This document shows positions 17,079 through 55,400 of a stretch of DNA of 57,021 bases, in pieces. The position numbers and the translations under genes are program-made. The notes under the pieces are model-generated. The model searched no databases. It was given only the letters and a program-made list of their open reading frames with translations, and was not told where the DNA came from. This DNA is from Acidobacteriota bacterium (GTDB lineage Bacteria; Acidobacteriota; Thermoanaerobaculia; Multivoradales; J023): assembly GCA_029263395.1 (NCBI GenBank), contig JAJCXO010000028.1, forward strand, positions 1 through 57,021. The letters are read 5' to 3'. Positions within the stretch are counted from its first letter, which is position 1. Each line of letters opens with the position of its first letter.

Positions 17079-17089
17079 CGTAGTCGACC

Positions 17090-17338: not shown

Positions 17339-17357
17339 GAGTCGATTGCCTGAAAAA

Positions 17358-20567: not shown

Positions 20568-20573
20568 CGGATG

Positions 20574-21434: not shown

Positions 21435-21435
21435 G

Positions 21436-30228: not shown

Positions 30229-30287
30229 GTCCTTTCTCCTCGAAAAACGTATGCCGGAAATCGGCGACATCTCTAACAACTGAGTCC

Positions 30288-33200
30288 TCAACTGCTGACC
30301 AATGGATCCAAGACGTGAGCGAGGCGCGCCACGTCCGGGCCAAGAATGATTGAACGGTGATCTCCTTTGACATCCGTCACAGAGAACGGACCGGTGGCCA
30401 GGTTCTGCCAACCGAGCTGTGGTGGCGGCGGTACAATCGGTCGGTCCAACCGCCAAGTGGCACGAATCAAGTCGAGACGCCCGGGGTACTGGCGAGGAAA
30501 GTAGGCCCGAATCGACGCCAGGTTCGCCAGCATGACCCGATAAGGGTGCAAGAGTCCTTCTCGGCGGGTGGTCGTCAACCAGTCATCGTCAGACACCTCC
30601 TCAGCAAGGCGCAGGATTTGCCCTAGCGCGTCGTCACCTGATGGCAGTGCCTGGCCCGCTGGCAGCCCAAGCACCTTTCGAAGGCCAACCTCTGCTGGCA
30701 TTCCCCCGTCGAGACCAAGGTCCGCTACCAATCGAGCCAGCACCGCCGACTCCCCCGCCGGCATCTCACGGATCAGGTCAGGCGCATAGCTGTCGATCAG
30801 CACCAGACGAGCCACCTCGCGCTGTTGGTCGTGCAGCAGGCGAGCCATTTCGAGCGCTACCATTCCGCCCATCGACCAACCAGCCAAGGTAACGGAGCCC
30901 TGCGGTTGAGCCGCCTGGACAACTTCGACGTAGGCCTCGGCCAGCTCGAGAATCCCTGTCGGCGGCGGGCACTCTCCGCGCAGGCCAGGACACTCGATGC
31001 CAACGACCGGGCGACGGGTGTCGAGTAGATCCACCAAGCCTTGGTAGGTGGTTGCCAAACCCTGAAAGTCATGGACCAGATAGATCGGCAGGCCCTCGCC
31101 GGCTCGGAGCTCAACCAATGGCGAAGGAGTCTCCTCGACCCGTTGCTCCGAACGACGACATAACTCAGCAATCGCCTGGACGGTGGGATTCCGAAAGAGC
31201 CCGGGCAGCCCGAGCCGCCGTCCACAGTCTTGCTCGATCACTGCGAGCAATCGCACCGCCAACAATGAGTGGCCGCCGAGCTCGAAGAAGTGGGCGTCGC
31301 GGCCCAGCTCAGAGATTCCCAGAACATGCTCGAAAGATTGAACAACGGCACGCTCCCACCGATCTCGCGGCGGTTCCGACGTTTGACCTTCCATTCGCTC
31401 GGAACCCGCCGTCGCCACCAGCGCTCGGCGATCGATTTTGCCGTTCGGCATCTGCGGAAACTCCGCCAACAGCCGCAGCTCGGACGGCACCATGGGCTCT
31501 GGCAAGTGCTCGTCGAGATGAGCCCGCAGCAGCGAAACCAACTTTGCCGAAGCTGCGCCTTCGTCGGTTGCAACCGCAGGCCGAACAAACGCCAGCAGCC
31601 TAGGCTCGCCGTGCACGGATGCGGCCATCACCAAAGCGTCCGTCACCTCGACTCGTTGTCGCAACAGGCTTTCGATCTCACCTAGCTCGATGCGAAATCC
31701 ACGAAGTTTCACCTGGTGATCCAGGCGACCCAACAGGCTTACCGATCCGTCATTGCGATGGCGGGCCAGATCCCCAGTCCGGTAGAGCCGGCCGCCCACT
31801 GCCTTGGAAAAGGAGTCCGGCACGAAACGTCCGGCGGTCTGGGAGGGGCGTTCGAGATAACCCCGAGCGAGGCCCTCTCCCGCCAACACCAACTCGCCAC
31901 GGCCCCCCAACGGCACCAGCTCGAGATTCCGATCCAGCACGAACAGTCGAGTGTTGTCGATCGGTCGGCCGATGGTCTGCGCGCCGCCCGGCCGCCTCAG
32001 GGTAACGGTCGAATACGTCGTGTCTTCGCTCGGGCCGTAAAGATCGTAGACCCGCTCAACGGCAGGGAGTTGATAAAGCTGGTCTGCCAACTCACTGGTT
32101 AGCGACTCCCCAGCCAGATTGATCACCCGCACACTGTCGGGGATCTGCCCGGCGCTCAGCAGGGCGGCGGCAGCGGACGGCACCGTATTCAACAGGGTCA
32201 CCGCATTACGCTCTGCCATTTTACCCAGAGCGATGACGTTGTCCGCCAAGTACAGCGTCCCGCCGACGCTGAGCGGCAGGAAGATCTCGAACACCGACAG
32301 GTCAAAACAGACTGAGGTTGCGACCAACGTCCCTTCGAGATCGCGCCGGGAATACACCCCGCGTGCCCAGGAGAGCAAAGATGACGCCGCTCCATGGCTG
32401 ATCGCAACGGCCTTGGGTTTACCGGTCGAGCCGGAGGTGTAGATCAAATAGGCCAGTTGCAAGGGATGGACCGACGACACAAAACCCTCGATCGCATCGT
32501 CAGCGGAAGCCTCGAGCCTGTCGCCCTCTTGTCCGCCATCCTCGAGAGCGTCGACAAAGCAGATCGGGCAATTCGCCGGGATCGTACTCCGCTCCAGGAC
32601 ACTCCGTTGCAAGGCACTACGACTGGTGATCAACAAAGACACTCCGGCGTCCTGCAGCATGAATTCCAGCCGCTCCTTCGGATAGGCCGGATCCAGAGGT
32701 ACATAAGCCGCGCCAGTTGCCAGCACCGCCAGCAGGCTACTGATCAACTCCTGTCGCCGCTCCAGGAGAACCGCCACCCGCTTTTCTGGACCTGCTCCCT
32801 GGCCTCGCAAGACGCCCGCCAAATGGCGAGACCGAGCTTCGAGCTCACCGTAGGTCCATCGGACCGAATGACCGTCTTGCGAGTCGCAAACCAAGGCCAA
32901 GTGCTGCGGTGTAGCTGCCGCCTGGACGTGAAAGGGAGAGTTGATCCCGGGTTCCGCGGGCAACTCCATTGCCGTATCGTTCCAGCCTTGGAGGAGTTGG
33001 TTGCGCTCTCCCGCCGACAACAAGTCCAACTGCCGCATCTCAGCATCGGGTCGTTCGACCAGGCCTTCCAGCAGCGTTCGAAAGTGCGCCGCCATGCGTC
33101 GCACCATGGTGGTTTCGAAGAGGTCGGAGGCAAACTCGAAGCCACCCTCCAGGCGGTCATCGGCCATGGTCATGAACAGTGTCAGCTCGTATTTGGCAGC

Positions 33201-34470
33201 GATCGAACCCTCTGGCCAACGCTCCATCGGCCAGGGTTCGGCGACCAATCCCTCCAAAGCCAGGTTTTGATCGGCAGTGTCCTGCAACAAGAACATCGCC
33301 TGGAAAAGCGGCGACCGACTCGCGTCCCGCAGCGGGTTGAGGGCTTCGACCAAACGCTCGAACGGCAGATCCTGGTGAGCAAAAGCCCCGAGGGCCATCT
33401 CCCGCACCTCGGCGATGCGCTCGTGAACCGTCACCCTGCCATCGAGCCGATTACGCAGCACTAACATGTTGACGAAGAAGCCAATCAAGGATTCCAACTC
33501 GGTGTAACGACGATTCGCCACCGGGGTACCCACATTAATTTCGGTTGCACCGCTGGTGCGTCCCAGAAGTTCGGCAAAGGCGGTCTCGAGCACCAGAAAC
33601 AGCGTGGAATGCGTGGCCCGAGCCAGTCGCCGCAACTCGCCTGCCAGCTCGTCGGGCAGCTCGAAGGTAATCCACTCGCCGCGGTGGCTTTCGGTGCCAG
33701 GGCGAGAGCCGCGGGTGAGCAAGTCGAGGGCCTGGGGCGCCCCGTCCAACTGCTGCCGCCAATAGCTCAACTGGGTTTCCAGGGCATCACCCCGCAACCA
33801 GTCCCGTTGCCACAGCGCATAATCGGCATATTGAATCGGCAAGTCGACTAAACCATCGGGATAAGGCGAGTCCAAGGCACTCTTGTCCAGGGCATTCTGG
33901 TCGAAGGCTCTCTGGTCGAAAACACAGTTATAGAGCGTCTGGAGCTCTCGCAGCAGCACTTGCATCGACCAACCATCGGAGACGATGTGATGCATGTTCA
34001 ACACCACAACGTGCTCCTCTGGGGTGAGACGCACGACGTGTGTTCGAAACAGCGGGCCGCTGGCTAGATCGAACGGTCGCAAGGCCTCTTCCCTCAGCAA
34101 CCTCTGCGCTTCGGCTTCCTTATCCGCTGGGGCAAGATCCGCGACATCGCTGAGCCCCAGCCGAGAATGGTTCGCCTCTAGAGCTGACGGCGGCTGGACA
34201 ATCTGGATCGGCTCGCCAAGGTCACCTCCAGCACGCTGTTGGTCGTGACCGGCTTGAGTAAAAACCGTCCTGAGGCTCTCATGGCGTCGGACAATGGCCT
34301 GCAGAGCGAAGTCGAGGGCCGTAAGGTGCAACGTGCCCCGCAGATGGAGGACGACGGGCAGGTTGTAGATTGCAGTGCCGCCCTCCATCTGATCGAGAAA
34401 CCACAGCCTTTGCTGGGCAAAAGACAGCGGCAGATCCTCAGGGCGCAAACCGGAGCGCGGCGGCGCAATC
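30288..34470 (-). other. Megasynthase: NRPS module 5 (alanine code) and terminal thioesterase
   Basis: The C domain has HHIVSDG (near residue 7665). The A-domain pocket reads D-L-F-N-N-A-L-T-Y-K, which equals a known alanine code. PCP Ser8576 precedes a type I thioesterase with Ser8707 in GWSMGG, Asp8734 in LIDSYAPD and His8879 in KGDHRSI. The TE releases the chain by hydrolysis or cyclisation and ends the assembly line. Confidence 0.85.
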
Positions 34471-37400
34471 GGTGATGTCTGACTGCGCAAGGCAGGCAAC
34501 GAGACGGCCAAGGCCGCCAACGTCGGCCGTGCGAAAACCTCTCGCACCGGCAGCTCGACACCAAACGTCTTGCGCACCAAGGCCGTCAGACGAGTTGCGG
34601 AAAGACTGTGTCCGCCGAGTTCGAAGAAATGACTGTCGGCTCCCAGAGCCGCCTCGTCCAGGCCGAGAACGTCCGCCCAGATACCACAGAGCAACTCCTC
34701 TTCCGGTGACCGTGGGCCTCGGCCATTAGACGCAACGTTCGACGACGGTAGCACCAGCTCGGCAAGGCCTCGTCGGTAGAGTTTGCCGCTCGGCGTCACC
34801 GGCAGCCGGGTCACGAAGACAAAGCTGGCAGGAATCATGACCTCGGGCAATCGAGACCGCAGAAACTCCCGTAACGTTGCGCCGAGGGTGATGTTGTCGA
34901 CGATCTCGACCGCATCGCTGGCACGCTCGACGCCATCTCCAGCCTCAGTCACCGCAGCAGCTTCTACCGAAGAGATTTCGGTCGACACCAGGAAGGCGAC
35001 CAGACGCTTCGGCCCGGTTGCGCGCTCCGGCCCGGCTGCGCGCTCCGGCCCAGCAGCTGGCTGCTGCACGATCACCGCCGCCTGCCGAATCGCCTCATGC
35101 CCCCGTAACAAGGCCTCGATCTCTCCCGGTTCGATCCGAAAGCCACGGATCTTGACCTGTGCATCGGTACGTCCCAGATATTCGATCGCACCGTCCTCGC
35201 GATACCGAACCCGGTCGCCGGTGCGGTAAAGCCGCCCACCACCGCAGGGATCTACCGTCAGTGCCAAGCCGGCAAACGGATCAGGAATGAATCGCTCCGC
35301 CGTCAAGTCGGGACGCCTCAAATAACCTCGGGCGAGGTTCGCCCCCGCCAGATACAGCTCACCGGGTGCATCAATCGGTACCGGAGCGAGTTGCGGATCG
35401 AGCACATAAACCCGGTTGTTGGCGACCGGTCCACCGATCGGCGGCAACGGCGACCAATCTCCGACCACCGGTGGCAGACCAAAGGCCGTGATGACGTGGC
35501 TTTCGGTGGGCCCGTAGTGGTTACACAACGAAGTTTCAGGTAGCGCTTCGAAGAACGCCCGCATGGTTGGATTCACTTGCAACTGCTCGCCAGCAGTGTA
35601 GACCTCCAACAGCGACGCCGGACGCGGTCCGCCATCCTCGAACGCCGCCGCCAACGCTTGCAGGCCGACGAAGGGCTGGTGGATCCGTTGGATGTCGCGA
35701 TCGGCGAGGAATTGCAACAAGGCGGTGGCGTCCCGTCGCAGGTCTTCGTCGATCAACACCAACTCACCGCCACTGGCCCAGGTGCCCAACATTTCCTGCA
35801 CCGAAACATCGAAGCTCGAGGCTGATCCCTGCAGGCTGCGCAAGCCGGGTTTGAACGACGGCAGCGCGATCTGCCAGCGGATGAGATTGGTGATCGCTCC
35901 CCGACTCATCGCAACTCCCTTGGGTTTGCCGGTGGAACCCGAGGTATAAATCACGAAAAGCAGATTCTGCGGACCGGCGAACTCTTCCAACGGGCCAGTT
36001 CCACAGTCCGCGGCGGCGGCATCCAGTTCTCGTGCGGACAGCGTTGGCACCGCGGCTGTTCGCACCGAGGCCGTCGACAACTTGCTGTCGGCCAGAGCAC
36101 CGGTCAGAGCATCGGTTCCAGCATCGTCAACCAGCAACAACGCTAAATCAGCATCTTCGACGATGGTGCCGATGCGACCGGCGGGGTAAGCGGGATCCAA
36201 GGGAACCCAGGCACCTCCGGCCTTGAGCACCGCAACCACGGTTTCCGTCAACGCGATCGAACGCTGCATACAAATTCCGACGCGTCGGTCCGGTCCGATG
36301 CCGAGCCTGCGCAAGTGACGCGCCAGTCGATTCCCGCGGCGCTCCAGGTGTTGATAGGTCAACCGCATCTCGCCAAAACTTGCCGCCACCGATTCAGGCC
36401 CCTGACTCAACTGCGCCTCCAAGACACTGTGGAGCGACCGCGGGCGCTGTAAGTCTTCGGTCGTCGCGTTCCAGCCCACCAGGAATTGAGTGCGCTCTGC
36501 CTCGCTCAACACGTCCAGGTCTCGAACCTGACGCTCCGGCTGGCTGACAAAACCCTCCAACAGCGTCTGGAAGTGATTCGCTAGGCGCCGGATCATCGCT
36601 GGTTCGAAAAGATCTGAGGCATATTCCAGACTGGCGGCCAGCCCGCCTTTGGCTTCACCGACAAACAGGCTGATATCGAACTTCGAAATGGTCCACTTCT
36701 GGAACCAGGGCTGCACAGTCAAACCTTCGAGCGCCAAAACGTCGGCCGGAAAATTGTGTAATGCGAAAAGTGCCTGAAAGAGCGGCGCTCGGCTGGTATC
36801 GCGCGGCGGATTGAGCGCTTCTACCAGCTTCTCAAAGGGCAGATCTTGGTGCGCGAAGGCATCCAGGGCCATTTCCCGCGTCGCGTCGATCCGCTGACGC
36901 ACGGTCGCCGCCCCATCGAGCGCACTCCGCAGCACCAGGATGTTGACAAAAAAACCGATCAGCGGCTCCAGTTCGGCATACCGCCGATTGGCCACCGGCG
37001 TCCCGACATTGACCTCGTCTGCCCCGCTGTAGCGGCCCAAGAGTTCGGCGAAAGCCGTCTCGAGGACCAGGAACAATGTCGATCGAGTCTCGCGAGCCAA
37101 CGCGTTCAACCCGGTGGTCAGCTCCTCCGATAGCTGGAAGTTGTGCAACCCACCGCGATGGCTTTCGATGGCCGGGCGTGGGCCCCGCGTCGGTAGATCG
37201 AGGGTCGGCAGCTCACCCTCTAGCTGCCGACGCCAATAGCTCAACTGTGCCCCCAGAGCCTCTCCTTGAAGCCACTGCCGCTGCCAGATGGCATAGTCGG
37301 CGTATTGAATCGGCAAATCTCCAAGGTCAGCATCAACCGTGGGCGAGGCCAATTCGCCGTTGTAGAACGTCCGCAGCTCTTGCAGCAGGACGTTGATCGA

Positions 37401-40400
37401 CCACCCATCGGCGATGCTGTGGTGCAAGTTCAGCAGCAGTAGATGCTCGTCGTCTGCCAGGTGCCAGAGGCAAGTCCGGAACAGCGGCCCGGTTGCCAAA
37501 TCGAACGGTCGTAATGCTCCAGCCCACGCCAATCGCTCGGCCTCAACCGCTCGCTCCGGCCTTGGGAGACCCGAAAGGTCGATCACTCCGAGTTGTGTGC
37601 TCGACCGTGGATCAATGAATTGAAAAACCTCACCCTCGATCGCCCCGAAACGGGTACGCAGACTCTCGTGTCGACGCACAATCTCCCGCAGGGCTAGATC
37701 CAGCGCGTCGACCTCGAGACCACCCCGCAAGTGAAGGGTTGTCGGCACATTGTAGATCGGTGCCCCGCCCTCTAAACGATCCAAGAACCACAGCCGCTGC
37801 TGAGCAAAGGACAGCGGCACCCGCTCGGGACGGGGACTGGGACGAGGCGGAGCCAGCGGCGGATTGTGACTGCGCAACGCGGGTAGAGAAGCCGCCATCG
37901 CACCTAGCGTCGGCTGAGCAAAAACCTCTCGCACCGGAAGCTCGACGCCAAAAGTCTGACGAACCAGCGCCGTCAGCCGGGTCGCAGTCAGACTGTGGCC
38001 CCCGAGTTCGAAGAAATGACTGGCACCACTCAGAGTTGATCCTTCGAGCTGGAGTACCTCCGCCCAGATGCCGCTCAGGAGCTCTTCTTCCGGAGATTTT
38101 GGCCCTCGAGCGGCGGGCGTCGCGGCCACCGACGGTTCCGGCGCCAGGTTTGCCAGAGCCTGCCGGTGGAGCTTGCCCGTCGCCGTCAACGGCAGTCGCG
38201 ACACGACCAGGTAGGCGCTAGGCACCATGACTTCAGGCAACTGCGACCGCAGAAACTCCCGCAACGTCGCCTGCAACCGGGAGTCGTCGAGGACTTCGAT
38301 CGGATCAGAGCCGTCGGGCGCTGGGTTCTCGGGCCTCGGCGCAGCAAGATCCCGGGGCACCAGAAAGGCAACCAATCGTTTCGATCCCGACACCGGACCC
38401 TGCACAATCACCGCCGCTTCTTGCACGCGGTCGTGGCTTCGCAGCAGAGACTCGATCTCTCCCGGTTCGATGCGGAAGCCACGAATCTTCACCTGGCTAT
38501 CCGTGCGTCCCAGGTATTCGATCGTTCCATCGGTCCGATAACGAGCCCGATCCCCGGTACGGTAGAGACGCCCACCACCGGCCGAGCTTGCGGCCTCGAC
38601 CAGGGTTGCGAAGGGCGGCGCGGTATAGGGCGGCGCGGTAAAGGGCGGCGCGGTAAAGGGCGGCGAGGCATAAGGGTCAGGAATGAAACTGTCGGACGTC
38701 AGGCCAGGTCGCTGAAAATAGCCGCGGGCAAGGTTGGCGCCAGCCAGATACTGCTCACCCGGAGCTCCGATCGGCACCAGAGCGAGCTGGCGATCGAGCA
38801 CGTAAACCTGACTATTGGCGATCGGACCGCCGATCGGCGGCAGGTCTGGCCAGTCCCGCGGCGTCGACGACAACTCAAAAGCGGTGATCACATGGCTTTC
38901 GGTCGGTCCATATTGATTAGTCAACGAGGCGTCCGGTAGCGCCTCGAAGAAGGCTCGTAACGTCGGACTCACCTGCAATTGTTCACCCGCAGTGTAAACC
39001 TCCAGCAGCGACCTTGGGCACGGGCCACCATCTTCGAACGCAGTCGCCAGGGCCTGCAGGCCGACGAACGGTTGGTGGATGCGTTGAATGGCGTGCACGG
39101 CGAGAAACCGCAGAAGTGCGTTGGCATCCCGTCGCAGGTCTTCGTCGATCAACACCAATTCACCACCGCTGGCCCAGGTGCCCAGCATCTCCTGCACCGA
39201 AACGTCGAAACTCAATGCTGAACCTTGCAGTGACCGCAAGCCGGGCCGAAACGACGGCAGCGCAACTTGCCAACGGATCAGGTTGGTGATGGCACCCCGG
39301 CTCATCGCGACCCCCTTGGGTTTACCGGTCGAGCCCGAGGTGTAGATCACAAACAGCAGATTCTCCGGCCCTGCCAGCTCTGGCAAGGGTTGGTCAATGC
39401 CGTCTGCTGCCGCCTCCACCATCTGTTGGTGAAACAGCGTCGGCACCTCGCAGCTGGCCAGGGCCTCGGCACCCGTTGGGTCGACCCACAACAGGGCCGG
39501 TGCCGCGTTGTCGACCATCGTCGACAGGCGCTCGGCAGGATACGCCGGATCCAGTGGCACCCAAGCTCCCCCAGCTTCGAGGACTGCCGCCACTGCCTCC
39601 GCCAGGGCGATCGAGCGCAACATACAGAGTCCAACCCGCACGTCTGGCCCGACGCCCAAGGTCCGCAGGTGTCGGGCCAGGCGATGGGTTCGACGCGCCA
39701 GCTGCCGGTAGGTCAGCGTGGTTTCGCCGAAGCTCACAGCCGCCGCGTCAGGAGTCCGGATCGCCTGGTCCGAAACTAAACCATGGAGGGAAGGTGGATG
39801 TCCGAGATCCACCGTGGTGGCATTCCAATCCACCAAGAGCTGGCGTCGTTCCGCCGCCGATAAGAGCTCCAAGTCCCGAAGCTTGGCATCCGGACGAGCA
39901 ACAAAACCTTCGAGCAAAGTACACCAATGAGCCGCTAGCCGCTGGATCAGGTCGGCCTCGAAGAGATCCGAGGCGTACTCCAAGCTGGCACCCAAGCCGT
40001 CTGCGGTTTCAGCAACGAAGAGCGTGACGTCGAACTTCGCGAGGGTCCAATCCTCGACCCACGATGTGACCGTCAACCCCGCCATCGCCAAATCTCTCGC
40101 CGTCAAGTTGTGCAAAACGAACATGGCCTGGAACAGGGGCGAACGACTGGTGTCCCGAACCGGGTTGAGCACCTCAACCAGCTTTTCGAACGGAAGATCC
40201 TGGTGAGCGAAGGCTTCCAGGGCCGTATCGCGAGTCGCTGCCAGGCGCTGGCGCGCCGTCATCGAACCGTCCAGCATGTTGCGCAGTACCAGAGTGTTGA
40301 CAAAAAACCCGATCAAGGGCTCCAGTTCGGCATAACGGCGATTGGCGATTGGTGTACCGACATTGACTTCGTCGGCGCCGCTGTAGCGACCCAGGAGCTC

Positions 40401-43400
40401 AGCAAAAGCCGCCTCGAGCACTAAAAATAGGGTCGACCGGGTCTCGCGGGCCAGCGCGTTCAATCCATCGGAGAGCTCCGAGGACAGCTGGAAGTTGTGC
40501 AACCCACCGCGGTGGCTCTCGACGGCAGGGCGCGGGCCACGCGATGGCAACTCGAGCACCGACAGCTCCCCGGCCAACTGACGCTGCCAGTAGCGCAGTT
40601 GGCTGTCCAGGGCATCACCCTGCAGCCATTGGCGCTGCCAGATCGCATAGTCGACGTACTGAATCGGCAGGTCGCGGAGCACATCACGCTCAGCAACGCT
40701 CGCCGCCGGGGGCGTATCTAGGGACGCGCTAGACGACGCGCTGCACGAAGCGTTATACATTGCCCGCAACTCCTGCAGCAGTACGTTCATCGACCAACCA
40801 TCGGCGATGATGTGATGCAGGTTCAGCAATAGGACATGCTCATCGTCGGCAAGCCGGACCAACAGGGCTCGGAACAACGGACCCGTCGCCAAGTCGAAGG
40901 GTCGGACAGCCTCATCGTGCGCCAGCCTCTCGCTTTCAGGCGTCCTATCCTGTGACCGAAGATGCGATAGGTCTGTCGCCTCCAATCTCGAGACGGCTTG
41001 CGAAGCGATGACTTGGAAAGCCTCACCCTCGATCGCTTCGAAGTGTGTGCGCAAGCTCTCGTGCCGAGCCACAATTTGCCCCAAAGCGTGGTCGAGCGCA
41101 CGGTATTGTAAGGCTCCTTCAAAGCGCAGGGCTGACGGCACATTGTAGATCGGCGCCCCGCCTTCCAAGCGATCGAGAAACCACAGCCGTTGCTGAGCAA
41201 GCGACAGTGGCAAATGCGCGGGACGCGGACCGCAGCGCGGTGGCGCGATCGGTGCGTTGGGCCCACGCAGGGCGGGTAAAGAGGCTGCCAGGGCCCCCAA
41301 CGTCGGCTGTGCAAACACTTCCTTGAGCGGTAACTCGATGGCAAACGTCGTCCGCACCAAAGCGGTCATGGACGTTGCGCTCAGGCTGTGACCGCCGAGC
41401 TCGAAGAAGTTGCTTTCGACCCCAATGGCCGTCGGGTCCAGATCCAGCACCTCCGCCCAGATGCCACAGAGCAACTCTTCCTCCGTCGTCTGCGGGGCGG
41501 TGCGGTCGTCGAGAACAGGCGTCTTGCGATACGCAGCCCGCTGCTGGAGAGTTTGACGATCCAACTTGCCAGCCGGCGTCGTCGGGAAACGTGAAAGCAA
41601 GGCGATCTCCGAAGGCACCATGTACGCTGGCAATCCAGCGGTAAGCTCCTGGCGTAAGGCAGCCAGCAGAACCGGGTCCGCGACGTCATTGACGGCACCA
41701 CGGTTTTCGTCGACGCCGTCTTCGTCGACACGGTTGTCGTCGATACCGTCTTCGTCGATCATCGGCACCACAAAGGCCACCAAACGCCGATCCCCGGAAG
41801 CGGTTTCATGGACAATGACGGTTGATTCTCGCACCGTCGGCTGCCGCTCCAGGAGGGCTTCGATCTCACCCAGCTCGATCCGAAAACCGCGCACCTTCAC
41901 CTGATGATCGATCCGCCCTTGAAAAACCAACGTGCCGTCGTTGCCCCAACGCACCAAATCCCCGCTGCGATAGACACGGGCACCAGCGGCATCTCCAAAT
42001 GAGTCGGGATTGAAGCGCTCGGCGGTCAATCCAGGGCGTCTCAGATACCCTTGAACCACCCCATCACCACCGATCAGAAGCTCACCGGAAGCTCCCATCG
42101 GCACCAGCCGCAAGGCCTGGTCTACGACGATCACTCGGTGGTTCGGGAGCGGTCGCCCTATGGAGGGTGCTGCTGCCAACTCCGGCTCGATCGCCCCGCT
42201 CAGGGTGGTACAGACGGAGTCTTCCGTCGGGCCATAAGCATTCAGAAGACGCCGGCCGCTGGACCACGAAGCTGCCAACTCGCGAGAACAGGCATCGCCA
42301 GCAACAATCATTGTCGTCACCGACGCAAGACTCTCCGTGGGCATCACCGCTAGTGCGGTGGGAATCATCAAGAGATTCGTAATGCCACGCTCATCACAGA
42401 GCTGCGCAAGATCGCGACCCGGCAAGAGACGCTCCTGGGGAGCCAGGTGCAGGCTGGCGCCAGCCGCCAAGGCCCAGAAGATTTCCCAGATGGACGCATC
42501 GAAGTTGGCGGACGCAAGCTGCAGCACCTTGGTTCCCGGCCCTGCCCCAGGCAACTGTTGTTGTGAGCGGACCAGGTTCAACAATCCGCTGTGAGAGACA
42601 ACAACGCCCTTTGGAATACCGGTGGAGCCCGAGGTATAAATGAGGTAGGCCACTTGGGCTGCCTGGCGCTGGGGCACCGGATGCGGAGCCGACTCCAGTG
42701 CCGTTCCGATCGGCACCGAGGCCACTTCCGGCGCCTGTTCGTCGAGCAGAAAGCGCCGAGTCGAGCCGTCTCCTAGTGGCAGGAGATCTTGCAATGCCGA
42801 GGTTGTCACGACTACTGAGCAACGGCTATCTCGCAACAGGAACTTTAGGCGTTGGCGGGGATACTCCGGATCGAGGGGAAGGTATATCGCCCCACTCTTC
42901 AGAATCGCCAGCAATGCGATGATCGCGTCCGGCGAACGTCTCAAGAAAACTCCGACGACCAGGCTCTGGCGTTGCTGCTGGCCAAGGAACACCCGTGTCA
43001 TCAGGTGGTGAGCCAGCTGCTCGGCTCTCTGCTCGACCGCACCGTAGCTTAGAGCCTGCCGCTCGAAGACAATTGCTGTTCGGTCGGGGAAACGCGCCGC
43101 CTGCTGCGCAACAAGATGGTGGCCGCAGGGGGTTTCGCTCCAGGTCTGAGCGGTATCGTTCCAGCCCCAAAGCAACTGAAATCGCTCCGCTCGGGACAGA
43201 CAATCGAGCTGACTGATACCAGCGTCCGGTTGGGTCACGAATCCTTCGAGGAGCGTCTCGAATTGCCCGATCATCCGTCGGATCAGGGGCGCCTCGAAAA
43301 GATCACGGTTGTATTCGATACCAGCCGAGAAACCGCCATCGGCTTCGACCATATAAAGCGTCAAGTCGACCTTCGCAACGTCGTACTTCTGCGGCTCCTC

Positions 43401-46400
43401 GCTGACCGTGAGCCCAGTCAACTCGAGCGCCGGTGCGGGGGTGTTCTGGAGGGTAAACATCACCTGGAAAAGAGGCGAACGGCTGGTATCCCGGACCGGA
43501 TTGAGCACCTCCACCAAGCGCTCAAACGGTAGATCTTGATGATCCAGAGCGGCCAGAACTACTTCTCTCAGAGTCGCAACCCGATCGCGGACGGTGTCCC
43601 GACTGGCCAGCACGTTCCGCAAGACCAACGTGTTGACAAAAAAACCGATCAACGGTTCGAGTTCAGCAAATCGTCGATTCGCAACTGGCGTGCCGATATT
43701 GATCTCGCTGGCACCACTGTAGCGCCGCAACAACTCGGCAAACGCTGCTTCGAGCACCAAGAACAACGTCCCTCGAGTCCCAGCGGCCAGCCGGCGCAAG
43801 CGGGTGGTCAACTCCGGGCTCAGATGAAAACTCTCCAGAGCACCGCGAAAAGTCTGGACCTTCGGCCGCTGGCTCGAGGTCGGAAGATCGAGCGTTTGCG
43901 GCGCACCATCCAGTTGGCGAGTCCAATAAGTCAAAAGGTTTTCGAGGGCCTGGTCTCGCAATTGCTCTCGCTGCCAGCGTGCGAAGTCGGCGTATTGGAT
44001 CGGCAGAGGGTGCGCCGTCGACAAGTCGAGGCCCTCCGCCTGCGCGGCACGGGCTTGTCGCAACGCACCGTAGAACGTGGTCAACTCTCGATGGAGCACG
44101 CCGAGCGACCAGCCGTCCGACACGCTGTGGTGCATGACCAAAGTGAGGATGTGAAGGTTGCTGCCCAGGTCCAGTAGATGGAACCGGAACAGGGGGCCAC
44201 GATCGAGCCGAAAGGGGTCGACGGCATCCCGCGCCATCAGTTCCGCCGCTGTCCGTTCCGCGACGGTAGCTGGGAGATGGCCCAGATCCACCAGCGGCAA
44301 GCTCCACTGTCCCGGCGGAGTGATCATCTGTCGCACTCGCCCCACGGTGTTGCAGTGATCAGCAACCTCGACAAAGTGCGTCCTGAGACTCTCGTGACGC
44401 TCGACAATCGCTCGCAGCGCCCAGTTCAAAGCTGCCACATCGAGCAGACCCTCGAGTCGAAAGGCGTAAGGCATGGTGTAGGTTGATGATGGCCCTTCCA
44501 TACGATCCAAAAACCACAGCCGCTCTTGGGCGAAGGACAATGGCGCGGGGCCCGCGTCTTGTTCGGCGGCAGTTGGTGGCGTGAGTGCCTCACCTCGCCC
44601 TTTGAGAGTCACCAAGTGAGACGCCAGGCCCGCTACGGTCGGCCGCGTGAAAATCTCTCGCAGTGGGACTTCCACCGCCAAAGTTTTGCGCACCAGGCTG
44701 AGCAGACGGCTAGCGGCCAGACTGTGGCCACCCAACTCGAAGAAGTGGCTCTCGGCGCCAATCGATGCTGGATCCACCTCGAGCACTTCTGCCCAAAGGC
44801 CACATAACAGTTCCTCTTCTGGGGTCCTGGGAGCGGTGTGTTCGCGCCCGGATGCCACACCTAGGCCCTCAGCCCGCCGGGTCAGGGCTTGTCGGTCCAA
44901 CTTCCCGCTCGGCGCCAGCGGCAGTCGGGACAGTAGGGCAACCACCGAAGGCACCATGTAAGCTGGCAACTGGGCGGCGAGCTCTTCTTGCAGCGTAGTG
45001 ACCAGGGCCGGGTCGGAGAGGTCGCGGACTGTTCCGTCCACCTCTTCATCGGATGCCTGGGGCACAACGAAGGCCACCAACCGTCGATCTCCAGCGGTGA
45101 GTTGATGGGCCACCACAGCGGCTTCTCGGACATTCGGCTGGCGGTTCAACAGGGTCTCGATCTCACCCGGCTCGATACGGTATCCCCGCACTTTGACCTG
45201 GTGATCACACCGCCCTAAACATTCGATTTGGCCGGCCACGCCATAACGCGCCAGATCCCCGGTCCGGTAGAGACGCTCACCACCGCGGGTGTGGGAGGTC
45301 CCTGGGCCCTCGACAAAGGGATTGGGTAAAAACAGCTCCCCGGTCAGCCCAGGACGCGCCAAATAACCGCGAGCCAAGTTGGCACCGGCAACAAACAGCT
45401 CCCCCGGTACACCGCGGGGTACCAGCTGCAACTTGTGATCGAGCAGGTAAATCCGAGTCCGGTCGATCGGTGTCCCAACTGGCGGCAAAGCAGACCATCG
45501 GTGCGGCTGCCGTGGCAGGTCGAACGCGGTGATCACGTGCGCTTCCGACGGCCCGTAGTGGTTGTGAAACGAGCACTCCGGGATGGCTGCAAAAAAGGCC
45601 CGTAGCTGACGGGTCGCCTGCAGCTGCTCCCCCGCTGTCACAATCTCTCGCAAGGACGTGGGCTGCAATCCAACGTCTTCAAACGCCGCCGCTAGCGCTT
45701 GCAGGCCAACAAAAGGTTGATGCATCCGTGCGATTGCACGACGTTTGAGAAACTCCAACAACCCGTGGGCATCGCGGCGTAGCTCTTCGCTCACCAGCAC
45801 CAACTCACCGCCGGTGAGCCACGTTTCGAAGAACTCCTGCGTCGAGATATCAAAACTCAGTGAGGCTAGCTGGACCGTGCGCAGGCCGGGATGGAACGAC
45901 TGCAAACCAATCTGCCATCGCAGCAGGTTGGCGATTGCACCACGCCCCATGGCTATCCCCTTGGGCCTGCCCGTTGAGCCCGAGGTAAAAATTACATAAA
46001 GCAGGTTCTCAGCCGACGTCACTTCGTCGAGAGGAGAGTCGTCGTAGGCGGCCAGGGTTGCCTCCAGGTCGGTCGGGATCAGACGTTCCGGGGCTAGGAG
46101 GGTGACCACCTCAACTCCGTCTGGATCAGCGAAGATCCAAGGGGGCGCGGCATCCTCCACCATCATCCGCACCCGGTCTTCGGGATAAAACGGATCCATC
46201 GGCACCCAGGCCCCGCCGGCTTTGAACACCGCCAACACCGCTTCCACCATGGCGACCGAACGCTGCATGCAGACCCCAACCAACACATCCGGACCAACAC
46301 CCAGCTGTCGCAGATACCGCGCCAACCGGTTGCTGCGCCGATCGAGGGTGCGGTAGGTCATCACTTCATCGCCGAAGCTCAGAGCCGGAGCATCCGAAAA

Positions 46401-49400
46401 GCGCTCGACGGCTGCAGCAAAGGCTGTGTGAAGGCTAGGCGTCGGCCCCGCAACATCGGTGTTGTTGAGTTGATTCAGGAGTTGATGCCGCTCGCTGTCG
46501 GGCAACAAGGGGAGCTCCTCAACTCCAGTATCCAGACGAGACCCGAGCCCCGCAAGCAGCTCCTGATATTCATCCGCCATGCGACAGATCCGCTGGCGGT
46601 CGTAGAGGGAGGGGTCATACTTGAAGGTCAGCTTCAGACGATCTTGAAGGTCGAACACCTCTAGGCTGAGCTCAATTTCGCCAATTTGGTGCACGCCGTC
46701 GACCGGTTCCAGCACTAGGGCCTGGGCAGCCCGCCCACTGCCGTACTCGCGGTCCAAGCGGCTGCGCAGGTTCTGCCAGATAAAACTGGTCTGAAACAAC
46801 GGCGTCGAATTGGCCTCGGGCACGAGCCCCAACTCCTGGATGAGCCGCGGGAAGGGCAGATCGGCATGCTCGAGTAGACCAAAAACCGACGTTTGAACCT
46901 GCAGCACGTATTGGGTGAGGCTGGGATTCCCCGTCAGGTCGAGTCGCAACGGCAGCATGTTGACGAAAAATCCGATCACATCGCTGAACTGCGACTCAGG
47001 TCGCCCCTTGACCGCCGTGCCGACCAGCACCTCGGTGACCCTCGCCTGGCGAGCCAGCAAGATTCCGAAGGCCCCAAGGCACAGGCTGTACAGGTTGGTC
47101 CTGAGGGTTCCAGCCAAACCGCGTAACCCGGAGGTGAAGTTGGCGTCCAGCTCGAGTTCCAAGAACTCGCCGCTGAAGCTCTGTATGTCGGGACGGGGAA
47201 AGTCGGTCATCAAACCTAGCTGATGTGGTGCACCGGCGAGGGTTTCTTGCCAGTAGCTGACTAGTCCAACGGCCTCGGGTCCGGTCAGGAACCGCTGTTG
47301 CCAGACCTGGAAATTGCGAAAAGCGGCAGCCGGTTCAGGCAGTCCGTGCGGCTCGGCCAGGCGCTCGGCACCGTAGATGTGGAGCAATTCGTCCACGAGC
47401 AGCTGATAGGACGCACCATCAAACACCAGGTGATGGACGTTGATCAGCAGGACGGGTCGCTGCTCGTCCCGACGGAAGAGCACCACTCGAAACAGAGGTC
47501 CTTGCTCGAGATCAAAGGGTGCACGAGCGGTGGCGACGATATCTTCCAGCAACACATCCCAACTCGATTGCGCAGCATCATGCTCTCTAAACGCAACATC
47601 GTGTGGGTCTTGGACGACCTGCACGGGCTGCCCGTCGACCTCGCGAAAGACCGTGCGTAGGCTCGGGTGTCGATCGAGGATGGCCTGGAAGCTGCGCCGC
47701 AACGCCACCCCATCGGTATCGCTACCGAGCTGGAATGCGAACGGAATGTTGTAGGCATAACTCTCTGGAGCCAGGCGGCAAATGAACCAGATGCCGGCCT
47801 GCCCTTCGGTGAGTGGGAACGTCCGCGGAGACTCTGGCGGAGAAGGCAACGGCACCCCATCGGCGGGCTGAGCTGGTGCCTTGATCCCGTAGGTGCTCTC
47901 GAATTCGGCACCAAAACCTTGCCCTTTGGCCACCAGCTCGAGATCAAGCGCCACGGAGGGCTGCCGGACAAAGTTGATCAAGGTAGCCGCCAAGTCCGTC
48001 GCCTGCTGACGATCCAGCCCTAACGAAATTGCCAAACGTACGGTGTTCTGGAGTGCTGGCCAAGCCTCGAGCCCGCTCAAGTGGGCACCACCGCGAAGTC
48101 CGGTCGCAACATACAGACTCGCAAGGAACGAGGGTACCGGTCGATCCAGGTCTCGGAATTCTGGCAGCGCCCCGACGTCCAGCAGCACACCATGAGACCC
48201 CGCCGGTTGGTGAATTGGCACCCCGGCCGTGGCGAGCTGCTCGACTAGTATTCTGACCGCTGTCAATCGCTCGCTGACCAACGCCAGCTGGCCACGTCGG
48301 TCCGCTACAGCCAAGGCCAACAGCCCCGCTTGATTGGTGTCTAGAGGTTCCGGATAGTCCAGGTACGCAGCCACCTGCGGGTCGTTGGTACCCACCAAAC
48401 CGCCCACATTGACCGCGAAGTCTTTGGCCAAACTAGCGGTCAGATGATCAGCCTGTGAGCACAGTTCCTTGACCATGGCCCAAGGCTGAGTCGGATCGAC
48501 CAACAAGGCATTTTCGAGCACCCGGGTAGCATCGATCATTAGCGGGACGCCAGCATCCGATAGCAGCCGTTTAGTAACCCGCAGGCTATCGAGTGAGACC
48601 GGGTAGCCACCGATACCGTTGTTGCTCAGCTCGAGACAGGCCAACACCGGTTTGCGGGTTTGGAGTTGGCGCTCCAGAGCCTCGAGATCCATGCCACCAC
48701 GAAACAGGTGTTGGGAGTGGATCTCCAGAATCTGGGGCAGCTCCACCGCCTCGAAGCCATTCTCGATTTGGTGATAAAGCTGGGTTGGGAAGAGCAGGTT
48801 CTGAACCAGGCCGGGCGCCCCCTCCGCACTCCCCTCCCCCAACGCACTAGAGCCGTAAGCTTTGGCGAACGCCTGCCAAAACAACCCCTCCGCACTGCGA
48901 CCCGACGCCGTGACCCGCAGGTGTGCAAATGGAAACAACCAACGCAAGGTGGCTTCGAGGTCCGGCGCCCTAGCCACTTGCGCCCGCAGCAGCTCCATCC
49001 TCGAACGAATGAAGGGGTTGTCCAGCTGGGCCCAGGAGTCCGTCTTGAGGTCAACGGCGACCTCCTCGGAGGCCAGCCTGAGGGTGTTGTAACCGACGGA
49101 CTCCAAACGCTGTGATCGCTGGCCCGGATCAGATGGAGCCGAAGTTTGCGACGCAGTCCCTGGCGTCGAGGACCCTGGTGTCGAGGTCAGCGGCGTCGAA
49201 GACCCTGGCGGCGAAGACCCTGTTGGCGAAGACCGTGGCGGAAGACCGGGCGATCCACCGTCTGGATTGGCCAGCATCATCAGAATATCCACAACTCGAT
49301 CGGGATCCGCGGCCAGCGGGCGACTCAGGTAAAGCTGATGGTTCTGCGGGCGAAACTTGTTCTTGAACTGCAGGTTGCCAGCACCGTCAAAGGCACCTCG

Positions 49401-52400
49401 GTCACGCAAGCCGTTCAGTACCGCATCCCCGGCGGGATCGGTCACGACAGCATCGGCAAGTCGAGCGCCAAACGTCGCGCCTAGACTGTAAGCGGCGTGC
49501 TCCTCGCTGCGGAGCTGAGTGAGGATGTGACAGATTCCGGTTTCGAGCCCGCCCAACGGCATGTCTGGACCGTAGAACTCCAAGTCCATCAAATAACCTT
49601 GCCGGTTAGGCATGGAAGTGATGATGATGACGTTCTGTAGCCGATCACTGAGCCATGTGAGAAAGATCCGATGGGCGGCGGGCAAAACGCCAGCAAGGAT
49701 CTCGCGCCGCACATTCGATACATACGGATTGACCATGTCCTTGCTGGCACACCAAGCATCCACCACCTCGACGATGGCACGGTCGGTGCCGGCATTTTCG
49801 CCAGAGTGGTATTCCTCCGTGAGACATTCACCGGACTTAGCGAACCGGCTCACCAGGTACCTGAGGCGACGCATCGCCCGCCCCTCGAGCGTGAAGGTGC
49901 TCAATGCAGGCAAACGCTGCATGACGCCGAACGGGGCGGCGCCGAAGGCCTGACCACCCGCGGATGCTAGCGGCTGATCACCGACCAGGTATGGCACGAG
50001 TTGGCGCTCGTCACAGTAGCGCACCAACTCATCGGCCAGAGGCTGGAAGTCGTCGACGGCACCGACGTAACAGAAGGCGAAACATAGGCCATCCGCTTCG
50101 TTGAAGTAGAACAGGGCGCGGCCGTAGGAGCCGAGAAAGATCCACGGAGCGATATCGCGACGGGCTAGGGCCGAGGTTTCCCAGGCCTGCTGTTCCAGAA
50201 TCGAGGCTACCACTGCCGATTCCCTGGGCCAGTCCGCCAACTCGTCCTCGCGCACAACAGTCCACTGGATGGGCGGCGCCACTTCGAGCTCGGCTTCAGG
50301 AACGATGGCAGCCTGTTCGACCCGTTCCTGTTCGACCCGTTCCTGTTCGATCCGTTCGACGTTCGGATTTGCTGGTAGGTCCGACGCAAAAGCTTCGATC
50401 TTGTGCTCGACCAGGTAGGCTGCCAGGTCGGCGAGGGTGTCTGCCTCGAACAACAGGGTTTTGGGTAAGGTGCCCACCCTCTTCTCGAGGGTTTTGACAA
50501 TGCGGAGATTGAGGAACGAATCCACCCCGTATTCGTCGAAGGGTTGATCGGGATCGATTTCGTCCACCGAAGTCCGTAACGCGCTGGCGAAGGTATCCGC
50601 CAGAAAACCCTCAACCTGTGGCAGGGTGGTGGCTACATCGGGTAGCGCTGCGGTCTCGGTACGGAGTGCCGGGCTCTCTAAAACCCTGGCGACAACCTGC
50701 GGCTCTGCCATCGACGAGTCGTGAACCTCTGTCCGAGGATTCAGGGCGAGTTCAATCCGATCCCGGTCTCCCGGCGCAACGGCAACATTCGAGTCATTGG
50801 ATCCGAGAGCAGCCACCAGCGCCGCCAGTCCGTCGTCGGTGGCCAATGGGATCACCCCGGTGGCTTCCTCAAAGAAGGCGATCTGATCCTGAGAGATCGC
50901 CATGCCGCCGTCGAGCCACAAGGGCCAATTGACTGCCAGGCTCTTGCCTTGCCGCTCCCCCTGCTGACGCAGGCGCTCGCGATAACGAGCAAAACCATCC
51001 ATGAATCCGTTGCCAAAGGCGTAGTCTGCTTGGCCCGGGTTGCCGAGAATCGACGATAGAGAGGAAAACAGCACAAAACACGCTAGGGGCTGATCGCGAG
51101 TCACCGCATCCAGCACCAACGTCCCTTCCCGCTTGGGCATCACGACGTTGTGAAACCGGGCAGAGGATTTGTTGGTCAGGAATCCGTCGTCGAGAATGCC
51201 AGCCGCATGAAACACGCCGTGTAGCGGACCGAAACGTTTGCCAACGTCGGCCACAAGCTGGGCCATCTGGTCTTCGCGGGTCACGTCGGCCTGCGTGTAC
51301 AGGCCCCGGTTTTGCCAACCTTGTAATGCGACCAGACGCGCTGCGAGCTCTGGGTTGGCCGCAGACCGACCCGTGAGTACAATGTTGCCCGAGGTCCGGC
51401 GCAACAAAAAGCGCGCCAAGATAAGACCCAGGCCACCGGCCCCACCGGTGATCAGATAGGTCCCGCTCTGCGGTAACTCCAACGGCGGCAACTCGAGAGG
51501 TGACGGTGAAACGACCTTCGGAACCAGCCGCCGTTGACGCACCTGGCGACCGCCCCAAAGTAGGTGACGAAAGCCGCCGTTGATCTCGAAGAGCTGAGCA
51601 GGCAACGCCCCAGTCTCCCGGGTCTCGCCACTCTGCTCCTTACCGTCACTCTGCACCTCGACAACTGTTGCCGAGAGTTGAGTCTCTTCGAGGATAACCG
51701 TCCGGAGCAGTCCAGCCAACGCTTCGATCCGCGGCGACAGGTTGCCTTCAGGGTTGGCGGCAACACAGCAGAGATGGACTGGCTCCGATTGATCGAGAAC
51801 TGCCTCGAGACATGGCAATAGAGTCTCGAGATCGTCGACGTGTGAGTTATCAGGCAGACGGTTCTCAGGCAAACAGTAGACAACAAGTCGCGGTAGCTGG
51901 TGTTGACCGAGGTGCTCGAAGAGCTGCCGCCAATTGGTCACCTCATCAACCGCCAGGCGATATCGATGCTGGCCGGTGACTTCGAAAGCCACACCCGGCT
52001 GCACCCAGGTGACGTGATCTGCTGCAGAGAGCCCTAGTGCATCAACCACGCGGCTCGTCAGTCCACTGTTGACGCCGAGAACTAACCCAGCGGTCGGCGT
52101 CAGGCCGGCAGCGCCTGTCAGAGGTATCCACTCGGGCCGGAAACTATGGACAGTGGTCTCCGAGGCGGACACTGGCTGCGTGGTGGCTGCTGGCTTAGCG
52201 CTAGCGACCGGCGGAGCTTCAAGAGAAGTCGCAACGCCTGAGGTCACCGGCCCTTTCGTGACATGAACTCTTTGGCGGCCACCGTTCGACGAAGGCTTCG
52301 CTGCGCCTCCTAGAGCCCGGACCGACAGATTCTCGAACCGCACCAGGAGGTTGCCTTGCGCGTCGACCAGGACGACGTGGAACCGACGGACGGGACTCAC

Positions 52401-55400
52401 CAATCGACCCTTGCCTGCATCCCCGGGCTCGGCACGCGTGACATAGGCGAAGCAGGTCTCGGGCAGGTCAGCCCACGGTACCAACCGCTCCAGGGCAAAG
52501 GGCACAGGCGTCCCTTCTTCGGGCGACATCAAGCCGACGATCGTCTGCAGCGCGCCATCCATCAGGCTGGGGTGGAACCGGAAGGGACAGGCTCCGGCGG
52601 CAGCAGGCAACACGAGCTCGGCCAGCGCCTCTGACCCGTTGCCTTGCCATGAGCGGATCGCCTGGAAAGCAGGCCCGTAGTGAAGTCCTCGCTCAGCGAG
52701 ACGTTGGTACCAGGTAGCGCCGTCAACGGCATCCCCACAGCGCTGACGGACCGCGGCGAGCTCCAAACGAGCCGGTGCCCCTTTTACGTTCAGCGGCATC
52801 ATTCGTCCCTCGGCTAGGACTCCGCCTCCTTTCTGGCCGTTGCAGGACAGCGACCAACTGCTGCTCCCCGAGGGTAACGCCGCGTCAGATCCCGCAATCG
52901 TCATCCGTAGTTCATGGGGGGCGCCGGAGAACACCAATGGACGCTGCCACGAAACACCGGCTAGTTCAGTCAGCCCAGAACCCCGGCTGACTGGACCCGA
53001 GGCACCGTTCCCACTGACCGAACTACCTGAGATACCAACGCTGAAACCGCCAGACGAGCCGGTGCCAGACACTGGGCCGTTGCCAGACACTGGACCACTT
53101 AGTTCCGTGCTTCCAGAAACCTTGCCAGACGACGCGGCAGCCAGCGCAATCTCCAAACAGACAACTCCTGGTAACAGCACCTGCCCGCCGATCACATGAT
53201 CGGCCACAAACGGCTCGTCGCCACGCAATAATTGGACAAAACTGTCGTTGCTGGCCAGCGGAGAGTCTACGATCGGCTCCGCCAAGACACCTGGCTCCCT
53301 CGTCTCCTCAGGTTCTGTCACGTCCTCAGGCTTGGTCGCCTCTTCAGCATCCGCCAACGCATCAGCGATCTTGGCTGGATCGCGTTGATCCGGCACCCAA
53401 TACCGAGCCTTGGCGAAGGGATAGGTCGGCAACGGCAGACGACGCGGCGGACGCTCACCGTAAAGCTTGGCCCAATCGATGGCTGATCCACTCACCCAAG
53501 CCTGCGCCAACGTCGCCACCTCGCGACCGGCCAACGCCAGGCCGACCGTGGCTGCATCCACCGGTTCTTGCCCAGAACTCGCAGCCTTCTTGCCCCGGCG
53601 TACACGCCCCGACCAAATTGCATCTGAAGGCTCACCGGCCGTAAACGCGACGAGTTGGCGCTGCAAGTCGCTCGCATCCCTGGCAACAATCGCTAGTCGA
53701 CAGGCATAAGCCTCCCGCCCGACTTGCAACGTGTGGGCGACGCGGCGCAGATCCAATGAGCTCGCCTCCCTGTTCCCTGCCGACGCTGCCCTCGCCAATG
53801 CGGCCAGGCTCGTGGATTGGGTGACCTGCCGCGGGTCGAGGCCCAACGACTTCGCCAACCGTTCACCGAACCGGGCATAACTCTCCCAGTCGAATCCGAG
53901 CTCAGACAGAGCCTCTTCCGGATCGAGATGCGCGACACCCAACGCCAGGACCTCAGCGGCGATGTTGACCACTTCGGACAACGTCCCCGAGTCCTCAGCA
54001 ATGATTGGCTTCATCGACACACTGCTGGCGGAGCTCAGGAAGCTGGCTAAATCCGTCGCTCGCGTCCGAAGCGCCTCGTCGGTTTTGGCCGAAAGCACAA
54101 AAACCTGCTCCCCCGCCTCAGCATCGCCAACGCCCAACAGGCCGGTGTCCTGCGAACCGGATGCCCCCACATACTCCTCGAGGGCAACATGACCGTTGAC
54201 GCCACCCATACCAAAGGAACTGACCCCAGCGCGACGCGGTACCGACCGGCCGTCCGCAGTGGTCGGCACATCCCAAGAGCGGGTCTCTCGCACGATCTCA
54301 AACGGAGAACCGTCCAACTTGATGAACGGATTGACTGCTTCGATGTGGATCGAGGCAGGTAGCTGCCGATGACGCATCGCCAGCAGGACTTTGCACATAC
54401 CAGCAATACCAGCGGCACGTTCCAAATGGCCGATGTTGCTCTTGACCGAGCCGATCCCACAGTGAGGCTCGTTTGGCGGCACCACCCCATGGCTGTCGTA
54501 GAGTCGGGCGAAAGCCTTCTTGAGACCACTGATCTCGATCGGATCGCCAAGGGCGGTGCCAGTACCGTGGGCTTCCATGTAGGAGATGGTTGTGGGATCG
54601 ATCCCCGTCATCTCCCACGCAGTCGCCACCAGATCGGCCTGGGCGTTGGGGTTGGGGGCGGTCATGGATGCCGCTTTGCCGCCGTGATTGACCGCGGTGC
54701 CTCGGATCAACCCATAAATAAAGTCGCCATCCGCTTCGGCCGCACTCAACGGCTTGAGCAATACGGCACCGGACCCCTCGCCCCGGGTATAACCGTCAGC
54801 CCGGCTATCGAACGTCTTGCACCGACCGTCGGGCGCCAACATGTCGGACTTTGAGATCGCGATGTGGTCGCGAGGACTGCTGTTGACGTTGATGCCGCCA
54901 GCAATCGCCAGTGCACAGTTGCCGATGCGGATCGCCTCGACTGCATTGTGCACCGCCACCAGCGCGCTGGAGCAGGCGGTATCCACCGGCTCGCTAGGTC
55001 CATGAATGTCGAGCAGATAAGAGATGCGATTGGTGAGGATGGTGTGGAACGAACCGGTCAACGTGTAGGCTTCGAGATCAACCTCGTAGTCGCGATAAAG
55101 CTCTTTGTAGTCGTAGTTACCAACCCCGACGAATAAGCCAGTATCGCTACCCGCCAGATCCGAGGGGCGATAACCGGCATCTTCGAGGGTCTTCCAGACG
55201 GTCTGCATGAAGATCCGCTGCTGCGGATCCATCAGCTCGGCTTCCCGTGGCGAGATGCCAAAAAACGCCGCGTCAAAACAGTCGATCTCGGGCACGAAGC
55301 TCCCGAACTTGGCATTGGTGCGATTCTTGTCTTCGGCAGGATCACCATACACCGCCCGCCAATCCCAACGATCGGGCGGCACCTCGGTGATCAGATCTTT

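Follow-up and report, generated by a model that had tools for sequence, protein, structure and literature searches.

A 57,021-nucleotide stretch of Acidobacteriota DNA (contig JAJCXO010000028.1 of assembly GCA_029263395.1; hereafter the window) carries two thirds of a gene that probably encodes one giant trans-acyltransferase (trans-AT) polyketide synthase-nonribosomal peptide synthetase (PKS-NRPS). In this assembly line, two sulfur-installing DUF-SH stations would feed five NRPS modules. Each station is a didomain consisting of a DUF domain and a pyridoxal phosphate (PLP)-dependent SH domain. The remaining third of the gene, with the first station, lies on another contig (C167) of the same genome. 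The whole gene would read KS(Cys to His)-ACP, KS-DH-KR-ACP-DUF-SH, KS-DH-KR-ACP, KS-DH-KR-ACP-DUF-SH, (C-A-PCP)x5-TE. I place the probability of this architecture, taken jointly with the chemistry proposed below, at about 0.75. The reading is built on the observed order of the domains, the adjacency of the two contigs, homology, catalytic residues, purifying selection, and conservation in four genomes.

The didomain and its gene

Pfam analysis of the reverse strand of window positions 47799-50570 revealed a PP-binding domain directly upstream of a PF09924 domain (LPG_synthase_C, E 1.8e-12), which is followed by a PF01212 domain (Beta_elim_lyase, E 3.2e-26). Thus, the DUF sits immediately before the SH domain and after an ACP, as in the DUF-SH family. 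The name DUF2156, also used for this domain, comes from the title of PDB entry 5vrv. In a phmmer search against the PDB, the SH domain was aligned over about 400 residues with a solved PKS domain, 9cen_A (E 6.7e-44), so that the assignment is not due to chance. The next solved matches of the PLP domain were tyrosine phenol-lyases (TPLs) and tryptophanases. By these matches, positions 47958-50225 (-), inside a single open frame of 8910 amino acids, encode a genuine DUF-SH didomain. The initial annotation had placed a leinamycin-like DUF-SH at 47890-50285, and this was confirmed. The features of the gene in the window are as follows.

30288..57020 (-), C-terminal 8910 amino acids of the megasynthase; open frame whose 5′ end lies off the contig and continues on C167
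56172..57005 (-), KR of module 2, by domain reading; C167 carries the N-terminal portion of this module
55734..55976 (-), ACP of module 2, by domain reading
54171..55490 (-), KS of module 3, by domain reading and motif (VDTACSS intact)
52305..53267 (-), DH of module 3, by domain reading and motif; catalytic motifs intact
50742..52142 (-), KR of module 3, by domain reading and motif; motifs intact
50403..50633 (-), ACP of module 3, by Pfam and motif reading (YGVDS)
49263..50225 (-), DUF domain, second copy of the line (PF09924/DUF2156; MprF/Fem-like fold, model pLDDT 94.8)
47958..49118 (-), SH domain, second copy of the line; PLP-dependent thiocysteine/cysteine lyase-like by Pfam, PDB match, tree, and residues
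46530..47828 (-), C domain 1, by domain reading; direct acceptor of the predicted sulfur-bearing acyl chain
30300..46436 (-), A-PCP of the first NRPS module, the four further C-A-PCP modules (2 to 5), and TE, by domain reading
30300-31124 (-), TE, by domain reading

Within the window, the line therefore reads KR-ACP, KS-DH-KR-ACP-DUF-SH, (C-A-PCP)x5-TE. The DH motifs (HVIGGQVLLP and HPSLMDGALQ) and the KR motifs (TGGAGGLG and S...Y..GN) of module 3 are intact, and an enoyl-ACP, that is, an enoyl thioester, is thus expected as the substrate of the didomain. An enoyl-forming module ahead of the DUF-SH and a hand-over to five NRPS modules directly after the SH domain had both been anticipated in the initial annotation, and both were found. 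On the other hand, the annotation had a single DUF-SH in the line. A search of the same genome revealed a second one on C167, which is 43% identical to the window copy.

The C167 frame is 4452 amino acids long and leaves the contig end in the same direction as the megasynthase. Its last 16 bases are the first 16 bases of the reverse strand of the window, in frame. This 16-mer occurs twice in the 10.68 Mb assembly, precisely at those two ends. The joint cuts a KR domain; C167 ends with the N-terminal part (PF21394, amino acids 4275-4424), and the remainder opens the window. Joined, the two pieces give a protein of about 13,357 amino acids (4452 + 8910 - 5).

The line begins with a KS whose active-site Cys is replaced by His, while the HGTGT motif is kept. 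The changed motif lies at amino acid 205 on C167 and at amino acid 142 in G001, a genome of the same genus. The replacement is found in all four genomes that have the two-station layout (see below), and the dN/dS of this KS between C167 and G001 is 0.07. It is possible that this N-terminal domain is an unusual loading KS.

The two-station layout in related genomes

The two-DUF-SH order was also found in three further genomes: G001, G010 from the same order, and G119 from the genus of G010. In G001, both didomains lie in one open frame of 8008 amino acids, which fills its contig and stops within the first A domain. In G010, the layout is encoded by a single uninterrupted open reading frame (ORF) of 17,277 amino acids (G010:C31:56775-108605 (-)), in which the second DUF is preceded by two ACPs and the TE by eight NRPS modules. 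This ORF is by itself a very large predicted bacterial protein. In G119, the layout is split between two contigs with an overlap of exactly 127 bases, and the NRPS part leaves the contig.

Of 72 genomes of the order that were searched with an E cutoff of 1e-20 and no more than 14 scored candidates each, 46 gave matches. Among the matches listed, DUF and SH occur together only in the window's genome, G001, G010, and G119; two more genomes have a DUF alone, and the remaining 40 have PLP-side stretches only. Against the congener, dN/dS is 0.07-0.14 for the DUF and SH domains of both copies, compared with 0.04-0.13 for three KS domains and one C domain as a reference. Judging from these ratios, both DUF-SH copies are under purifying selection.

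The trans-AT setting and neighbouring genes

No Acyl_transf_1 domain was found by Pfam in the C167 ORF or in window positions 47886-57020. Likewise, an AT seed found no AT in the available frames of the four two-station lines, while the same seed detected the AT of two cis-AT controls. A discrete gene was found near the megasynthase.

25556..27799 (+), AT-ER didomain gene: a trans-acting AT (DisD-like) and a PfaD-type ER (DfnA/PfaD/MlnA-like)

One other ORF (27997-30456) separates this gene from the 3′ end of the megasynthase gene. An AT-ER gene is present in all four two-station genomes; in G010 it adjoins the 5′ end of the megasynthase gene on the opposite strand. By gene content, the line is a trans-AT PKS with AT-less PKS modules and a discrete AT gene, and the non-actinobacterial trans-AT/NRPS setting given in the initial annotation was borne out. 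Pfam searches of 29 ORFs from the window and C167 found no HMGS beta-branching cassette, the rest of the genome lying outside this search, and no fatty acyl ligase. Since the loading module resembles KS(Cys to His)-ACP and a ligase was not seen, the term lipopeptide suggested earlier is unproven. No obvious sulfur-tailoring family was found among the window genes run through Pfam.

Upstream of the megasynthase on C167, positions 1212-5195 (+) of locus L012 carry a phage-type integrase and two IS91-type transposases. Near the cluster, window positions 9519-22149 (-) carry CHAT, CsgG, caspase-like, and TPR-CHAT genes and a sigma-70 gene.

DUF-SH loci in the genome collection

Is the didomain itself rare? 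The genome collection was scanned with two peptide patterns, and the best 80 of 86 confirmed loci (L037-L116) were analysed, so the census is a lower bound. The context was counted within 6 kb on either side using 11 seeds, each derived from the line in the window. Twenty of the 80 loci are titled actinobacterial, and 60 are others, including Bacteroidota, Pseudomonadota, and Acidobacteriota (the title of L084 has no phylum). As judged by these loci, DUF-SH is common outside the actinobacteria. The non-actinobacterial host emphasized in the initial annotation is thus correct but commonplace.

After the SH domain, no further seed domain follows in frame in any of the 20 actinobacterial loci, although the TE seed, being from the window's line, may fail to detect a TE in these loci. 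Among the remaining 60, the next domain is a KS in 54, a C domain in three (L037, L038, and L068), and nothing visible in three (L084 and L108 are short contigs). Thus, among the best 80 loci, an SH domain followed by an NRPS C domain occurs only in L037, L038, and L068, all from two-station genomes, in addition to the window. Fifty of the 80 loci have no seed domain ahead of ACP-DUF-SH in its frame and a KS behind it, with DH-KR-ACP-KS next in most of them. The hosts of this ACP-DUF-SH-KS class include Aquimarina, Kordia, Fulvivirga, Lysobacter, Massilia, Steroidobacter, and Acidobacteriota (e.g. L039, L042, L056, and L071). L042 has a discrete KS, two AT genes, and a zinc-ADH gene upstream of ACP-DUF-SH.

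In the 75 genomes reached from the 80 loci, two PKS DUF-SH didomains were found in one frame in G001 and G010 and on two contigs in G119, G046, and G045. In the last two, each copy continues to a KS, and the copies are known from separate contigs only, not from one established line.

Phylogeny and active-site residues of the SH domain

An SH tree of 90 rows was made, leaving out L079 (246 amino acids) and L108 (30 amino acids) as too short and the tryptophanase row L020. It separates 81 SH rows from nine tryptophanase-like rows with a support of 100/100, and the window copy falls among the SH rows. Streptomyces sp. CB01635 is row L085, while no row bears the name LnmJ, GnmT, or WsmR. The solved domain 9cen_A ('Polyketide Synthase Protein') belongs to a Streptomyces/Kitasatospora clade. 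The strain CB01635 is a leinamycin (LNM) producer according to the text portions of PMC8479088 used here.

The copies of the first station (copies a: C167, L115, L080, and L074) form one clade with 100/100 support, and those of the second (copies b: window, L037, L038, and L068) form another, also with 100/100. Since each copy has its own clade over the four genomes, the two-station state is probably older than the split of the four lineages. In the best tree, copies a and b are apart, but constraining them together was not rejected (approximately unbiased test, p-AU 0.29). In a quick DUF tree, where 29 of 80 inner branches are weak and from which L104 was excluded, each copy lies on one side of a branch. 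By these trees, the two copies may or may not have arisen by local duplication.

All 81 SH rows, both copies included, have the Schiff-base Lys, the DATR Asp and Arg, and the stacking Phe. The carboxylate Arg is present in 80 rows, both copies among them, with one gap, and the Arg of SGR in 72. The position resembling Asn185 of TPL is Asn in 30 rows, including the window copy, Asp in 30, and other letters in 21. The roles of these residues are assumed to be those known from tryptophanase and TPL work.

The PLP domain might be supposed to be a tryptophanase or TPL fused to the line for a role unrelated to sulfur, since it belongs to the same Pfam family and TPLs are its next-best solved matches. 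However, the tree sets it apart from the tryptophanase-like rows with full support. Moreover, the Tyr-Ala-Gly segment (DExYAG) found in all three tryptophanase-like rows displayed is present in none of the 10 SH rows displayed, those of the window and C167 included; its Tyr presumably corresponds to the Tyr71 region of TPL. A tryptophanase fusion is thus rejected on the basis of tree and residues, and I consider any such reading very improbable. The comparison with SH domains and tryptophanases proposed earlier therefore came out on the side of SH, with the main PLP residues kept.

Proposed chemistry and alternatives

In the proposed scheme, the Cys-to-His KS would generate an acetyl starter from malonyl-ACP by decarboxylation, in analogy with KSQ domains. 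In modules 1 and 3, KR and DH would yield an alpha,beta-enoyl-ACP. The DUF would deliver (thio)cysteine to the beta carbon of the enoyl group, and the PLP-dependent SH domain would cut the C-S bond of the cysteine, so that -SSH (or -SH) stays on the chain. Acetyl and module 1 would thus give crotonyl and then 3-(SSH)butyryl. Module 2 would extend the chain by two carbons between the stations, which would place the sulfurs in a 1,5-relationship, at C3 and C7 of the acyl unit. Module 3 would produce a dienoyl unit to be sulfurated at C3. The predicted acyl unit is a 3,7-bis(hydropersulfido or thio)-oct-4-enoyl group, or octanoyl if the trans ER acts. The C domain would condense this chain onto the first of five amino acids, and the product would be released as a pentapeptide conjugate. 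All of these chemical steps, as well as the acetyl starter and the choice of persulfide over thiol, are inferred.

The sulfur might also be installed as a thiol (-SH), with both SH domains acting as plain cysteine lyases on L-cysteine. This was the product implied by the initial annotation, with its thiolated chain. LnmJ-SH has measurable cysteine lyase activity according to the available text of PMC8479088, and the lack of an obvious sulfur-tailoring family among the searched window genes also suits a plain cysteine donor. However, the same source reports that all three characterised SH domains prefer thiocysteine, by 50- to 106-fold, and install -SSH rather than -SH. Plain cysteine lyases are hence a real but lesser possibility, and a persulfide is preferred here.

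Several observations weigh against the two-station scheme. The first DH of the window's genome reads HVIQERCVLP, with Glu for the Gly of HxxxGxxxxP that is kept in G001, G010, and G119; station 1 may thus be weaker in this genome. SH copy a has Asp instead of Asn at the Asn185-like position. As the first KS lacks its Cys, the starter assignment is a guess. The trans ER could reduce the enoyl group ahead of the DUF. All four two-station genomes are in multiple contigs, and three of them (JAJCXQ, JAHZIX, and JALXFE) are metagenome-assembled genomes. The SH tree came with warnings of long branches and odd letter make-up. The changes in the first DH and in SH copy a could mean that only one station works and the other is a relic or is skipped. 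This is unlikely, as both SH copies retain the Schiff-base Lys, the DATR Asp and Arg, the stacking Phe, and the carboxylate Arg, and both are under apparent purifying selection and present in all four genomes.

Fold of the DUF domain and a possible tRNA donor

The closest structural neighbours of the predicted DUF structure (pLDDT 94.8) are MprF, L-PGS, and A-PGS, with Z scores of 20.6-25.3 over 257-300 residues. They are followed by 2hqy, a protein of unknown function (19.6), the aminoacyl-tRNA-dependent synthases Sbb17/Sba18 (17.3-17.6), FemX/FemA (15.6-17.1), and ATE1 (13.3), while ordinary GNATs score 13.0 or lower. A profile search likewise placed the DUF with MprF/Fem-type transferases (best E 3e-14). 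The modelled DUF thus has the fold of the aminoacyl-tRNA-dependent transferase family. Asp214 and Lys288 of the DUF do not vary across the 60 rows and are aligned to one Asp and one Lys in A-PGS, which I take to be D765 and K840. The Arg three residues after this Asp in the LDLMR segment of A-PGS (presumably R768) is replaced by Phe217 of a DLEF segment, again invariant (60/60). The DUF can also occur apart from the lyase. In L127 (G120:C21, amino acids 1256-1580 of a 2468-amino-acid ORF) and L128 (G005:C153, amino acids 951-1253 of a 2664-amino-acid ORF), a DUF without SH follows the AT of a cis-AT module with the order KS-AT-DUF-DH-KR-ACP, the DH of L127 having been recognised by eye.

E. 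coli CysRS forms tRNA-bound CysSSH, as described in the text of PMC5660078 available here. Together with the fold neighbours, this makes a tRNA-borne thiocysteine donor a concrete hypothesis, in which the DUF would take Cys or CysSSH from charged tRNA like its fold relatives and so provide the thiocysteine adduct. The confident model, whose nearest folds of known function are aminoacyl-tRNA-dependent transferases, and the invariant Asp214 and Lys288 point in this direction. On the other hand, a common fold does not mean a common function, and the Arg of A-PGS has given way to an invariant Phe. In a tRNA ester, the alpha-carboxylate to be bound by the SH Arg would also be blocked, so hydrolysis would be required. 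Furthermore, the precursor proposed in the consulted text of PMC8479088 is thiocysteine itself, from cystathionine gamma lyase, and the word 'tRNA' has zero occurrences in the main texts of PMC8479088 and PMC7618002 as available here. The model-based case for a tRNA donor is therefore doubtful. The fuller version, a DUF that adds the persulfide of CysSSH-tRNA to the enoyl-ACP and does so twice per polypeptide to give a 3,7-bis-persulfide peptide, is quite speculative.

Comparison with known systems and implications

DUF-SH is already known, also outside leinamycin biosynthesis. The window's didomain shares with the leinamycin-family DUF-SH (LnmJ, GnmT, and WsmR of Streptomyces) the order ACP-DUF (PF09924)-SH (PF01212), the main PLP residues, and a single SH clade. 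In leinamycin lines, a single DUF-SH belongs to a terminal module, KS-ACP-ACP-DUF-SH-TE, which comes after beta-branching (PMC7618002, in the parts used). The window, with KS-DH-KR-ACP-DUF-SH-C, does not match this module; here, there are two DUF-SH didomains, each after KS-DH-KR-ACP, and the second is followed by an NRPS C domain. DUF-SH PKSs outside the leinamycin family, whose DUF-SH module has a single ACP and lacks a TE according to the accessible text of PMC8479088 and PMC7618002, are more alike in their single ACP, the DUF-SH within the line, and the module without TE. Many non-actinobacterial loci of the genome scan may correspond to them. However, in the 50 loci of the ACP-DUF-SH-KS class, no seed domain comes before the ACP and the line proceeds to a KS, while the window's DUF-SH proceeds to a C domain. 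Among solved structures, 9cen_A is the closest SH domain by sequence (35% identical), but it belongs to the actinobacterial clade. MprF, the other aminoacyl-tRNA-dependent phosphatidylglycerol synthases, and the Fem transferases share the DUF fold. Unlike them, the DUF forms part of a PKS, where it is flanked by an ACP and a PLP lyase, and it has not kept the LDLMR Arg. A line with two DUF-SH didomains or with a direct passage from DUF-SH to NRPS was not found in the open-licence literature searched, the 109 biosynthetic gene clusters of PMC8479088 lying outside this check.

The leinamycin family provided the first enzyme assigned to an intact natural-product -SSH, according to the same text of PMC8479088. 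Two sulfur stations, the second of which feeds an NRPS, predict a compound class that was not met in the literature searched and suggest natural products of a so far unknown family, each bearing sulfur at two sites. The four lines are natural material for studying the placement of DUF-SH within an assembly line, and the fold of the DUF makes its role directly testable. If the DUF does use a tRNA-borne donor, the assembly line would draw its sulfur from the translation machinery.

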